48,998 nucleotides of DNA from Rhodopirellula sp. (GTDB taxonomy: Bacteria > Planctomycetota > Planctomycetia > Pirellulales > Pirellulaceae): the NCBI GenBank assembly GCA_002689655.1, contig NZHC01000062.1, forward strand, positions 88,100-137,097, in the 5' to 3' direction. Both the position numbers and the translations under genes were made by a program. The notes under the pieces were generated by a model. That model saw only the letters and a program-made list of their open reading frames with translations, had not been told where the DNA came from and did no database searches. How positions within the stretch are numbered: the first letter of the stretch is position 1; each line of letters begins with the position of its first letter. Below are positions 32,941 through 46,455 of this stretch, piece by piece.

Positions 32941-33286
32941 TTCATATCCCTCATCGGCACAAGCTTTCCTCTACCTTGCACAACAGGGGCACCAACACTG
33001 GACAAACCAGAGAACGAGACAGCCTTTTGCACTGCAAAGTCGTTCTAATGATATTCCTGTTGACCATTTCAGCGATACCGCCGGTGGGATGCCGCAATAG
33101 GGCATTTGACTGGCTTGGGTTGTCCCACTTTGACATGCGCGTTAGCAATTCAACCTGAGATCATCGATCCCGGCAAGTAAAATAGCATAGAATTCCATGC
33201 ACGCCGCGTTGTGGCAGCGAACACGCCTCGCTCTGTACCACGATTCTGTCTGCTTCCAAACTCGAACACTTCGGAACCACCAGCCC

Positions 33287-34306
33287 ATGCGTCACCTCGT
33301 GCTTACAAGTTTATGCATGTCGGTTTTTGGTCTTCAAGTGCTCCTAGTGAGCCCTGAATCCAACGCCGAAGAGCTCTCTGGAATCGAATTTTCGTTTCCT
33401 AGACTGGAAGCCGCCCAACATTTGCTGAGCCAGACCGACACCTACACCAACACGGCAAGTCCCTTTGATCGAAAGGTCAGAATGGGCGTTGCCAAAGACC
33501 CTGGAATCGAAAAGTACCTGGAATTCGTCGCCGCACAGGTACTACCCTGGAATTTAAAGGATCGTGAGAACCTCCAAAATGCGATCAAAAATCTTGAGTC
33601 ACCATTGAAAGCCCTGTCGATCAAGCTCAACTCTCCCGTCAGCCTCATACACACAACCGGAAAAGAAGAGAGCGGTGCAGCCTACACCCGCGGTAATGAA
33701 ATAGTTTTTCCGAAACGTGAACTCCAAGGGACCTTAAAAGCACAGACTAAATTGTTGGCACATGAGTTGTTTCACGTCATCTCTCGGCAACACCCGACTC
33801 TCAGGAATCAGCTCTATCAAGTGATTGGCTTCAAAAAGGCGAATCCGATTCAACTTCCGGGTAAATTATCCGCGCTCAGAATTACGAACCCTGATGCTCC
33901 CGTAATTGAGCATGTGATGCAGCTAAAACTCTCACCCACACAGTCAGTTCACATCGCACCTATGCTGATCGCAAAGTCTGATTATGTGGAAAATGGGCCA
34001 GCTAGTCTGTTTGCATATCTATCGTTCAAACTCATGCAGGTCAAACAGACATCCGAAGGGTGGAACGCTGTCCAAGAAAACGGTGCACCTATTTTTCACT
34101 CACCTCAAGCCGCCGACTTCCACCGGCAAATCGGAAAGAACACGAGCTATATCATCCATCCCGAGGAAATCCTTGCGGACAACTTCGCACTAATCATGAC
34201 CAACGGAACCATAATTGACTCGTGGCTCACAGATAAGATGAAGACGGTGATGAAAGACTACTTCGAAGCCCTAGCTAAAACGCAACTTACAGAAAACCAA
34301 TCATGA
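33287..34306 (+). CDS. Exported HExxH metallopeptidase, family unassigned
   Basis: 339-aa exported protein. A signal peptide (MRHLVLTSLCMSVFGLQVLLVSP...NAEE) covers about the first 27 residues; I chose this ATG for that reason over the one 30 codons upstream. The zinc site is HELFH (159-163, catalytic E160) in TKLLAHELFHVISRQHP. About 130 residues later comes HPEEILADNFAL (from H291), which looks like the third zinc ligand region of a gluzincin (E293 or E294). The spacing is long for minimal gluzincins. I do not recognise the family. It may be a periplasmic peptidase. It stands alone, with empty DNA on both sides. Confidence 0.78.
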   Translation: MRHLVLTSLCMSVFGLQVLLVSPESNAEELSGIEFSFPRLEAAQHLLSQTDTYTNTASPFDRKVRMGVAKDPGIEKYLEFVAAQVLPWNLKDRENLQNAIKNLESPLKALSIKLNSPVSLIHTTGKEESGAAYTRGNEIVFPKRELQGTLKAQTKLLAHELFHVISRQHPTLRNQLYQVIGFKKANPIQLPGKLSALRITNPDAPVIEHVMQLKLSPTQSVHIAPMLIAKSDYVENGPASLFAYLSFKLMQVKQTSEGWNAVQENGAPIFHSPQAADFHRQIGKNTSYIIHPEEILADNFALIMTNGTIIDSWLTDKMKTVMKDYFEALAKTQLTENQS

Positions 34307-42584: not shown

Positions 42585-45197
42585 CTATGCGTCCCACTGC
42601 AGCGCATCCAACCACCTTGTCCACTCTGCAATCTGTTCGTCGGAAAGTTTGGGTTCGGGCAAAGTAGGCAGTTTGTTGGTTGACGTTGCACCCTCTGCTT
42701 GGGCACGCACGACTAACAACCCGTTGACATCGATTTCGAACCCAATCATCCGTGCCCGCTGGGCACCCTTCTCGATCGTAATTTCGTACCGGCCCAACGT
42801 TTGCCAATCATTGCGTGACAGCCCAGACGACTCCACAAGTGACAGCGTCATCGAATCTCTTTCCGATCCAACAGTGAGTCTTCGGTTGGTTCTTGCCGGC
42901 AGCGAGGTCCCAAAAGGAATCAGTGGTAGTATTCTACGCCGACCTTTGACGTCTTCCACCACGATCCCAATGGTCTGACCGGTAACACCACGCGCAGGCA
43001 TGGCGACAGCCGCCCCGCGTCCTGGCAGTTCAGCTGCCAGGCACGCCGCAGCTCCCTTCGCAGTGTCAGTACGATCAACTGGGGAATAGGTCATCTCAGA
43101 GCTGATCCCGCGTAGCACCGCATTACGCACCATTGGAATTTTGAGAATCGGCCCGAGAGTGACGCAGCGATCAATATCACCGAGAGACATGGATGCATCT
43201 CGACACGCTCTTTTAACCGTCTTCCTCAATCGAGCCGCCAAATCTTCACAAGCCTGCAACCAATGCCGCCTAGCAACCCATACTTTGTACTCTCCATCTT
43301 GAACCTTTAATCTGATTGATACTTTATCAAGCAGCGTCATTGAGTTCATTGCCCGCTCGCACGCCATCTGCAGCTGCGCCACGGTCGTCCGCGAACTGCG
43401 TGGGTCGAAATTATGTTCCTTCTGAAATGCGGTCACACTAAGCTCGACCAAACGCTGCAACCATGGCAACGTCCCAGAATTCCAATGTCCTGAAATCGCC
43501 AATTGATGTAATCGGTTGGCTTCACCTCGAAAGACGGAGACCTCACTGCCCATACCAGTCACGCCAACAAACAGGATTCTTTCTTGACCGTCTTCTTCGA
43601 CACTTGCGGAGTGATCATCAATTTCTTCAAACTCGCCACTCAGCAAAGTAGACTGCACGGCGGCAATGGAACGGTGGACGAGTCGCACCGACTTTAGCCC
43701 CGCCATTTCAGCTGCTTGCAGAATCGACTGCCGGTGCAGTTGATCATAACTTGCTGGTATTGTGATCGCCGTAACGGCTGGTGGTGCATCTTCCGTCCAC
43801 GTATTTGAAATGAGGTCGCGAAACATCATCGCCATCAAGACTTCAGGCGGGCACTGCCTACCTGCAATCTCACGCTCAACAACATCTTTACCGATGTACA
43901 TGGGCACGCAATAGGCAAGGTTTTGCGTTTTGCCAAGCCGACGCTCCATGGCTTTGGAGCCGAAGTACAGTTTTTCCTCGTCGCTCGCTACGGCCATTCG
44001 GAAAGATGCACTTTCTTCGCGAGCAGACATCAGCAACCGGATTGAGCCAGTTGGCGTCGTCTCGGCCACGGCTCCGAAGAACATGCCGAGGTCGATCGCG
44101 AACACATTCGAAACGGCAGAAGCACCGGAGCCACTATTGGATGAAGCCGCTGACTCAGATGCCACTTGCCGCCCAGAATACTCCGCAAGCCAGGCGGGAG
44201 TGTCGTCTTGGGTGACATATTCGCTCAGCTCATCAATGACTTCGTCGAACGATGCATATCGCTGGTCGGGGGACTTTGCCATCATCCGCATGAAGATGTT
44301 CGAAAAATGAAGATCAACATCGTCGCGTGCTTCCATCAAGTCAGGAATTTTTCCATGACGATGGCCATACACGAGTTCAAGGTAGTCGCCAGTAAAAGGT
44401 GCACGCCCCGTCAATAAAAAAAACAGCGTCGCGCCAAGCGAGTAGATATCACTCCGAGGGTCGGCAACATCAGGATTGTCCAGTTGCTCCGGAGCCATGA
44501 AGGGGAGAGTGCCAACCAGCCGACCTTTGGACTTCTTTTTTGGGTCGGCATTGCGTCCCACGACGTCTGCTTCATTAAGCAGCGCAGCCGAGTTAATACG
44601 GGCCAGCCCGAGGTCCAAGATTTTGACCGTGCCATCAACGCCTTTCATCACGTTACCGGGCTTGACGTCGCGGTGAACAATTCCAGCGCGGTGTGCGTGA
44701 AGCAGGCCTAAGGCAGCTTGGCGAATGATCGCCGCTGCCTCGCCGATGGGTAACGGCCCTTTTTGGGCTAACAGTTTCGTCAGCGTCTGACCATCGACAT
44801 ATTCCATCGCCAAGTAGTGAACCTCATTCGATTCACCAGCATCAAAGGCCGTGACAATGTTGGGGTGCATCAAACGAGATGCGGCCCTGACCTCATCGTA
44901 GAAACGCGAGACAGCTACTTCGTCTTTCATGCGTTCCACAGGAAGCATTTTGACGGCAACAAGGCGTTGCATACGGGTATGCTCAGCGAGGAACACCTGC
45001 CCCATGCCACCGGACCCAATCAGCTCTCGGATCTCATAGTCACCGATTTGTGATGGTATCTTCCCATCCCCGCCCGCATCAGTTCCGAGATCAAAATCCT
45101 CACTATCGGTATTACCGCTCATATCGCGCGTACGCATCCCGCGCATATCCTGGGTTGGGATTTCAGCCGTAGGAAAGTTGTTGGTGGTGTCTTCCAC
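42585..45197 (-). CDS. Ser/Thr protein kinase fused to an Hsp70-like module
   Basis: 870 aa. Residues 54-325 are a Hanks-type kinase: GSGGMG loop (61-66), K83, E102, HRD (175-177), DLG instead of DFG (196-198), APE (235-237). After a linker (326-363) comes a segment with the layout of Hsp70. VFAIDLGMFFGAV (366-378) lines up with the phosphate-1 loop, AITIPASYDQLHRQSILQAAEMAG (477-500) with the helix after it, ILFVGVTGMGSEVSVF (541-556) with phosphate-2, LGPILKIPMVRNAV (681-694) with the adenosine motif, and 755-832 (FGTSLPAR... MIGFEIDVNGLLVVRAQ) with the peptide-binding sheet. The nucleotide residues are largely replaced, so it is probably a sensor or binding module, not an active chaperone. 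No TM helix is visible. Substrates are unknown. Confidence 0.9.
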   Translation of the reverse strand: MEDTTNNFPTAEIPTQDMRGMRTRDMSGNTDSEDFDLGTDAGGDGKIPSQIGDYEIRELIGSGGMGQVFLAEHTRMQRLVAVKMLPVERMKDEVAVSRFYDEVRAASRLMHPNIVTAFDAGESNEVHYLAMEYVDGQTLTKLLAQKGPLPIGEAAAIIRQAALGLLHAHRAGIVHRDVKPGNVMKGVDGTVKILDLGLARINSAALLNEADVVGRNADPKKKSKGRLVGTLPFMAPEQLDNPDVADPRSDIYSLGATLFFLLTGRAPFTGDYLELVYGHRHGKIPDLMEARDDVDLHFSNIFMRMMAKSPDQRYASFDEVIDELSEYVTQDDTPAWLAEYSGRQVASESAASSNSGSGASAVSNVFAIDLGMFFGAVAETTPTGSIRLLMSAREESASFRMAVASDEEKLYFGSKAMERRLGKTQNLAYCVPMYIGKDVVEREIAGRQCPPEVLMAMMFRDLISNTWTEDAPPAVTAITIPASYDQLHRQSILQAAEMAGLKSVRLVHRSIAAVQSTLLSGEFEEIDDHSASVEEDGQERILFVGVTGMGSEVSVFRGEANRLHQLAISGHWNSGTLPWLQRLVELSVTAFQKEHNFDPRSSRTTVAQLQMACERAMNSMTLLDKVSIRLKVQDGEYKVWVARRHWLQACEDLAARLRKTVKRACRDASMSLGDIDRCVTLGPILKIPMVRNAVLRGISSEMTYSPVDRTDTAKGAAACLAAELPGRGAAVAMPARGVTGQTIGIVVEDVKGRRRILPLIPFGTSLPARTNRRLTVGSERDSMTLSLVESSGLSRNDWQTLGRYEITIEKGAQRARMIGFEIDVNGLLVVRAQAEGATSTNKLPTLPEPKLSDEQIAEWTRWLDALQWDA

Positions 45198-45531: not shown

Positions 45532-46455
45532 ATGACACCCCTCCGGATCGCGACCCGCAAAAGCCCCCTCGCTCTTTGGCAAGCTGAATACGTTGCAGAA
45601 TGCCTCGGAAAGGCCGGAATAGCCACCGTCTTGGTACCGCTGGTCAGCAGCGGCGACACCGACATGCGACCTATTGATGGCACGCGGCAAGTTGGGCTTT
45701 TCACAAAGCGAATCCAACTGGCGCTGCTGGACAATGAAGCGGATATTGCCGTTCATTCCCTTAAAGACCTGCCTACCGAACAGAACGCGAGCCTGTCGTT
45801 GGCTGCTATCCCCGCACGCGAAACGGTTCTGGACAGCCTCGTCGCCAAGACCAGTGTTAAACTGGATGAACTGCCGCCCAACGCATGTGTCGGTACCGGC
45901 AGCCAAAGACGAGCCGCACAACTGCGGAATCGCCGCCCAGACCTGAACGTGATGCCGATCCGGGGAAACGTTCAAACCCGACTTGGAAAGCTTGAAGAGG
46001 GTGAATTTGACGCCATCATGCTTGCCGAAGCAGGAATCTTGCGACTTGAGATGCATGATTTACCTCGGACACAGTTCCCAATTGACGAAATGCTTCCGGC
46101 GCCCGGACAGGGTGCGTTAGGAATCGAAATCCGCAAGGATGATACCGCGTGCGAGGGTGTTCGTATTCTCGACCATCTGCCAACCAGAGCAGCCGTGACG
46201 GCCGAACGCAAATTGCTTGCATCTTTGCACGGAGGCTGCCTTGCACCCATCGCCGCATTGGGGCGCGTCACCGGTGAAACCATGCAATTGAAAGCAACGG
46301 TGCTCTCGCAAGACGGCACCCAACGACTCGACGAAGCTCATGAACTGCCCACCGACTCGCATTCTCTGCTCGAAGTCGCTGCGCAACTCGCGGAGCTCGC
46401 GGCTACCTCACTGTTAGAGCGAGGCGCCACAGAGCTTATCAACGCAGCACGATAA
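45532..46455 (+). CDS. hemC: Porphobilinogen deaminase (hydroxymethylbilane synthase)
   Basis: Condenses four porphobilinogens into hydroxymethylbilane in tetrapyrrole synthesis; 307 aa, usual length. The catalytic aspartate is D79 in HSLKDLPTE. The dipyrromethane cofactor is held by C236 in [13 protein letters not shown]. Other signs are [37 protein letters not shown] and [14 protein letters not shown]. Start ATG at [15 protein letters not shown]. No other heme gene is adjacent. Its promoter must lie in the 51-base gap to the small TM ORF or inside that ORF. Confidence 0.97.

Follow-up and report, generated by a model that had tools for sequence, protein, structure and literature searches.

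A Ser/Thr kinase fused to a degenerate, lidless Hsp70-like module in Pirellulaceae

Hanks-type bacterial kinases of the PknB kind usually carry as their sensor an extracellular PASTA or similar part located beyond a membrane segment. On the chaperone side, Ssz1 of the fungal ribosome-associated complex is an atypical lidless Hsp70 which, in the excerpted account, binds ATP, hydrolyses little or none of it, takes the ATP-bound form and regulates its partners (PMC8476630). Hsp70 genes are also described, in the part of a second source considered here, in predicted conflict systems together with GrpE or GTPases (PMC7159879).

Here we describe a gene that unites both kinds of protein. It lies in a stretch of 48,998 nucleotides from a Rhodopirellula sp. 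genome, hereafter the window, and consists of a single frame of 870 codons starting with GTG (Table 1). A Pfam Pkinase match (residues 54-315, E=1e-45) is followed by an HSP70 match above the curated cut-off (residues 425-858, E=1e-30, profile positions 83-509 of 599). A phmmer search of the PDB with the C-terminal half retrieved DnaK (2v7y, 1e-21), but this half falls a long way short of the NCBIfam cut-offs of both the DnaK and the HscA models. With the Hsp70/DnaK family (PF00012), the protein shares the fold, the full order of segments, a Pfam score over the cut-off and the structural match, but it is devoid of the lid, the canonical linker and the catalytic residues.

Table 1. Features of the fusion gene and its divergent neighbour, in window coordinates
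Feature	Position	Strand	Basis
Whole gene: Ser/Thr kinase and pseudo-Hsp70 fusion, 870 aa	42585..45197	-	ORF, Pfam
Protein kinase domain, residues 54-315	44253..45038	-	Pfam, motif residues
Variable linker, residues 334-362	44112..44198	-	Highest dN/dS among compared regions; low pLDDT
Degenerate part resembling the Hsp70 nucleotide-binding domain (NBD), residues about 366-723	43029..44102	-	Pfam, phmmer vs PDB, AlphaFold, Foldseek
SBD-beta-like sheet domain, residues about 743-842	42672..42971	-	Model strands, PDB alignments, column table
Last helix, residues 853-865, then protein end; no SBD-alpha lid	42603..42641	-	Model, end-distance count
Eroded phosphate-1 loop IDLGMFF (368-374)	44076..44096	-	Residue scoring, alignment
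R509 at the place of DnaK catalytic E171; R/K in 55/55 eroded relatives	43671..43673	-	Alignment, residue tally
Eroded phosphate-2 loop VGVTGMGSE (544-552)	43542..43568	-	Residue scoring, alignment
Eroded adenosine motif LGPILK (681-686)	43140..43157	-	Residue scoring, alignment
hemC (porphobilinogen deaminase), divergent neighbour; marks part of the eroded lineage by synteny	45532..46455	+	Domain and neighbour scan

By analogy, Ssz1 is comparable as the nearest functional parallel of the pseudo-Hsp70. As far as the excerpt goes, the two have in common the Hsp70 fold and the absence of SBD-alpha, and they would also share an ATP-type conformation (here predicted, in a model run without a control), little or no ATP hydrolysis and a regulatory rather than folding role. 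Ssz1, however, binds ATP and partners with Zuo1, whereas the present module has an altered pocket and forms one chain with a kinase. The conflict systems, in turn, resemble the present case in that bacteria with complex habits put Hsp70 to a use other than general folding, but in the portion of that source considered here Hsp70 and kinase are separate genes, the system themes are different and no fusion was found (PMC7159879). A full-text literature search, with subscription papers and database architecture lists outside its scope, returned no description of a bacterial kinase-Hsp70 fusion; it is possible that this domain order has been catalogued somewhere without having been studied.

The kinase half presents a GSGGMG loop from residue 61, K83, E102, the HRD aspartate D177, and D195 within a DLG in place of DFG; these catalytic residues are invariant in a 12-sequence (A2) and a 20-sequence (A4) alignment. 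K83, E102 and D177 thus stand as the first-pass annotation of the window had named them, while its D196 must give way to D195 as the metal-binding Asp. The best reading of this half, which the NCBIfam model NF033483 covers over residues 54-333, is a Hanks-type Ser/Thr kinase with the full catalytic set, predicted to be active. Its domain type is that of the PknB-type kinases, but the part in the position of the sensor would be a cytosolic pseudo-Hsp70 and not an extracellular PASTA-like one. Indeed, a hydrophobicity scan of the 870 residues found no stretch of membrane length (best 19-residue mean 1.5), and the protein is best read as soluble and cytosolic. Among PADLOC defence-kinase profiles, the best 25 of 35 hits all fall inside residues 43-392, on the kinase side, and membership of an anti-phage defence system was discarded, these matches being to the kinase domain only. 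Two relatives carry two kinase domains before the eroded Hsp70 (L109:3867-7421, 1185 aa; L138:5001-8759, 1253 aa), and in another fusion (L149:4575-7409) a match to the anti-sigma-type zinc finger zf-HC2 precedes the kinase.

The AlphaFold model of residues 361-870, built with 22 relatives, adopts the Hsp70 fold with good confidence (pLDDT 87.8, pTM 0.88). Foldseek returned 371 PDB matches at E<=0.001, and the 50 listed of these are all Hsp70-type chains, headed by BiP-ATP2 (6asy, E=1.9e-35). Together with the Pfam match, this bears out the earlier proposal that the C-terminal part follows the segment order of Hsp70, the substrate-binding sheet included, and an unrelated fold is ruled out. The model scores higher against docked chains of DnaK, BiP and Ssb (TMq 0.80-0.84; 0.84 for 4b9q_B) and against Sse1 (0.75-0.77) than against undocked chains (0.52-0.58 overall, 0.53-0.58 for chains such as 2v7y, 4ani and 1yuw). 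Because similarity is higher to docked than to undocked chains, this is weak evidence for a docked, ATP-type arrangement of the two parts, and since the run included no control Hsp70, the docked form may be a habit of AlphaFold. In the model the chain stops one helix beyond the SBD-beta sheet, leaving no lid, an absence that the first pass does not mention; furthermore, the distance from the end of the Hsp70 match to the end of the protein is at most 29 residues in 78 of 78 scored fusions. The full-length model has low pLDDT at model residues 302-320, which correspond to the linker, and its kinase part is of low quality (about 30-40 over model residues 135-194), so that it offers no readable interface between the halves.

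The nucleotide loops noted as eroded in the first pass are read as such in the translation (IDLGM from residue 368, VGVTGMGSE from 544, LGPILK from 681), and the GAA block, counterpart of the usual DEAVAxGAA, starts at residue 711. To place this erosion among its relatives, 16 residues of the DnaK nucleotide site, whose DnaK numbering we take as given, were scored in 98 proteins, with columns set by the DnaK of the source genome. The 870-residue fusion retains four of the 16, with P, R, G and G at the places of K70, E171, D194 and T199. The 78 scored fusions comprise 15 with intact pockets (15-16 of 16), eight partial ones (10-14) and 55 eroded ones (2-7); a further fusion (L159, from genome G507), scored after the main set, has 16 of 16. 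Among 20 standalone Hsp70s, of which 13 are short (514-615 aa) and the rest DnaK-type or long, 19 keep 15-16 residues and one (L153 at 968) keeps 12, which shows that a standalone Hsp70, too, can be eroded. One second copy in a genome (G018, L150:4878-7475) retains two of 16 and has no Pfam HSP70 report.

The losses follow a definite pattern. K70 and D194 are kept in none of the 55 eroded fusions and T199 in one; E171 is replaced by R in 45 and by K in 10; K270 and G342 are missing in nearly all. Conversely, D8 persists in 49 of the 55, P143 in 54, R151 in all 55 and E267 in 54, G341 and G228 in most, and the glycine of the NG-type loop in 54 of 54. In the excerpt of PMC4664246, K70-E171-P143 and N170-R151-D481 are linked groups coupling the nucleotide site and the domains; of these, the eroded form has retained P143 and R151 and lost K70 and E171. 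Five of the eight partial fusions have K in place of T199, while most of the eight keep K70 (6/8), E171 (6/8) and D194 (7/8), which suggests that T199 was lost early in the erosion. The reading as an ordinary active Hsp70 was rejected on account of the pocket residues lost in this protein and across the 55, and ATP binding by the eroded half is unlikely, given the changes in the pocket.

Purifying selection on the Hsp70 half is strong, as shown by comparisons of coding sequences: in pairs with unsaturated synonymous sites, the kinase has a dN/dS of 0.014-0.019, the NBD-like part one of 0.022-0.027 and the SBD-like part one of 0.039-0.048 (for at least five comparisons, saturation precluded a ratio). 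On these values for the Hsp70 half, neutral decay was rejected. The divergence of the Hsp70 half relative to that of the kinase is 0.94 in intact fusions, 1.98 in partial ones and 1.46 and 1.48 in eroded ones. Within the eroded set, conservation at the 16 pocket sites exceeds the mean for the NBD (3.01 vs 2.27 bits, P=0.0016), a difference that is no proof of a new ligand site because retained canonical residues are included, and new residues have become fixed (M372, W572, Q610, W798, W862). Selection and fixed residues together argue that the Hsp70 half is constrained as something other than an ATPase.

The domain order is widespread among planctomycetes. A single match running from kinase into Hsp70 (from model position 140 or before to 480 or beyond, counted by eye among the listed matches) occurs in at least 128 of 241 Pirellulaceae genomes and at least 32 of 68 genera, and in at least 20 of the 22 genomes of the window's genus; the figure of 128 leaves out 13 genomes of genus g79, nine of them with a shorter match listed, although one of the 13, represented by locus L108, does hold the fusion. 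Outside Pirellulaceae, the matches listed for 296 genomes of the order show it in G040 and G388 only, and 294 genomes of the phylum, at a strict E cut-off, add one more outside the order (G507). Named relatives belong to Rhodopirellula, Rubripirellula, Roseiconus, Laterigemmans and unclassified planctomycete MAGs; R. baltica is itself a member of Pirellulaceae, Pirellulales. With the degenerate half as sole query, one protein was retrieved outside Planctomycetota, a Roseococcus Hsp70-type protein without kinase. Of 22 named planctomycete loci, 21 have an open frame, with identities of 35-96%. In Rhodopirellula maiorica (L054:6153-8925) the gene is split over two frames of 613 and 339 aa, with a frameshift in the gene or the assembly. 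A virus-borne gene was rejected, none of the 22 stretches matching a pattern being a relative.

Kinase phylogenies indicate that kinase and Hsp70 were fused several separate times. In an IQ-TREE kinase tree of 45 fusions and 63 other kinases, all 21 eroded representatives form one clade with five partial fusions (L025, L028, L029, L111, L141; support 100), L149 and L159 are each sister to a non-fused kinase (98), L104 pairs with L137 (100), and the intact fusions lie outside the eroded clade, in a grouping of low support (69). A FastTree phylogeny of 143 kinases agrees, with 60 in one clade (0.983). In the Hsp70 tree (56 representatives), the 23 eroded halves form one group (support 100) and the five partial ones another (98), which is related to the eroded group (94). 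The intact-pocket fusions of Pirellulaceae and other planctomycetes share the domain order and the lidless Hsp70 half with the eroded ones, but differ in their 15-16 pocket residues and in their kinases, placed apart. Read in this manner, the main lineage would be a kinase-Hsp70 fusion that lost its ATPase in steps, and the alignments and trees show descent of the eroded form from fusions with a less eroded pocket. Separate losses in L104/L137 and in L149 are likely from the kinase tree. However, the Hsp70 tree sets L137 and L149 (10 of 16) beside the eroded clade (99-100), so that their independent erosion depends on the kinase tree; the conflict may instead reflect long-branch attraction or domain exchange.

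The conservation of an Hsp70 half that has lost its ATPase residues suggests that a chaperone fold has been put to a new use, as sensor or docking part. We consider it fairly probable that the protein is a receptor-type soluble kinase with a lidless, nucleotide-independent pseudo-Hsp70 as its regulatory or docking module. The pseudo-Hsp70 would run no ATPase cycle; its two parts, going by the model, would stay docked and ATP-like independently of nucleotide, perhaps held by the basic R509 facing the retained D369 at the D8 place; and a protein or peptide ligand bound to it would switch or aim the kinase. A more far-reaching version is put forward only tentatively: chaperones would have been turned repeatedly into nucleotide-independent kinase sensors of a widespread class, a lidless working Hsp70 being fused, its ATPase lost and its docking kept, with the fixed Arg/Lys as nucleotide substitute in the main lineage and the state of client or partner, not ATP, setting kinase output.

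What the module would recognize can be conceived in different ways. Sensing of unfolded clients, the signalling design suggested in the first pass, is plausible; spelled out as an SBD-beta-like groove that binds exposed hydrophobic segments of unfolded proteins and in this way governs the kinase, as a cytosolic counterpart of chaperone-based stress sensors, it is possible but doubtful. The SBD-beta fold is kept in the predicted model and the groove of the eroded set is mostly hydrophobic (I, L or V at the I401 place, mostly M at V436, L at I438), but this groove departs from that of DnaK and the intact relatives (L at F426, mostly G at A429), and no CIRCE heat-shock operator was found in the window at up to three mismatches. 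Ssz1 and Sse1 pair with canonical Hsp70s. By analogy, the module might pair with true Hsp70s or other clients and aim the kinase at chaperone-bound proteins, which we regard as unlikely: the Ssz1-like features (no lid, predicted lack of hydrolysis), the resemblance to Sse1, and the presence of an ordinary DnaK and a 901-residue Hsp70 in the source genome agree with it, whereas no partner gene was found beside it, and the neighbours of six relatives (ten proteins scanned) include no DnaJ, GrpE or phosphatase and share no partner.

Still less likely is a pocket that binds nucleotide or another small ligand without hydrolysis as the signal. The retained D8, E267, G341 and G228 places and the conservation of the pocket sites would fit such a role, but K70, E171, D194, T199, K270 and G342 are gone in nearly all eroded proteins, with a reversal of charge at 171. 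As for a functionless remnant decaying behind an ordinary kinase, the gradual loss of canonical residues, the copy reduced to two of 16 without an HSP70 match and the broken R. maiorica copy could be cited; nevertheless, the low dN/dS (0.02-0.05) throughout the Hsp70 half, the open frames in nearly all named loci and residues that are invariant and particular to the lineage, W572 and W798 among them, speak against it and make it highly improbable. If the regulatory role preferred here is true, the protein would be a direct link, in one molecule, from an Hsp70-type domain to phosphorylation, a function would be at hand for one of the many planctomycete orphan kinases (56 Pkinase matches in the source genome), and one bacterial family would span, as a natural series, the range between a working ATPase and a pseudo-ATPase. 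Comparing fusions of the intact, partial and eroded groups would open the question of which part of the Hsp70 cycle signalling requires, much as Ssz1 and Sse1 do for chaperone action.

Regarding the genomic context, divergent hemC is common to 23 of 75 listed loci (22 distinct places), all of them eroded, and to none of 15 intact-fusion loci; we do not count it as belonging to the mechanism. The 901-residue Hsp70 of the source genome (L032, contig C84) is extended by a long stretch at the C-terminus and its pocket is intact (15 of 16), and in other Pirellulales a long Hsp70 stands in tandem directly beside a short lidless one (L152, L153, L155). Elsewhere in the window, a 369-residue frame (33197-34306, + strand) matches eCIS_core (PF13699, E=2.1e-7) and is possibly part of an extracellular contractile injection system.
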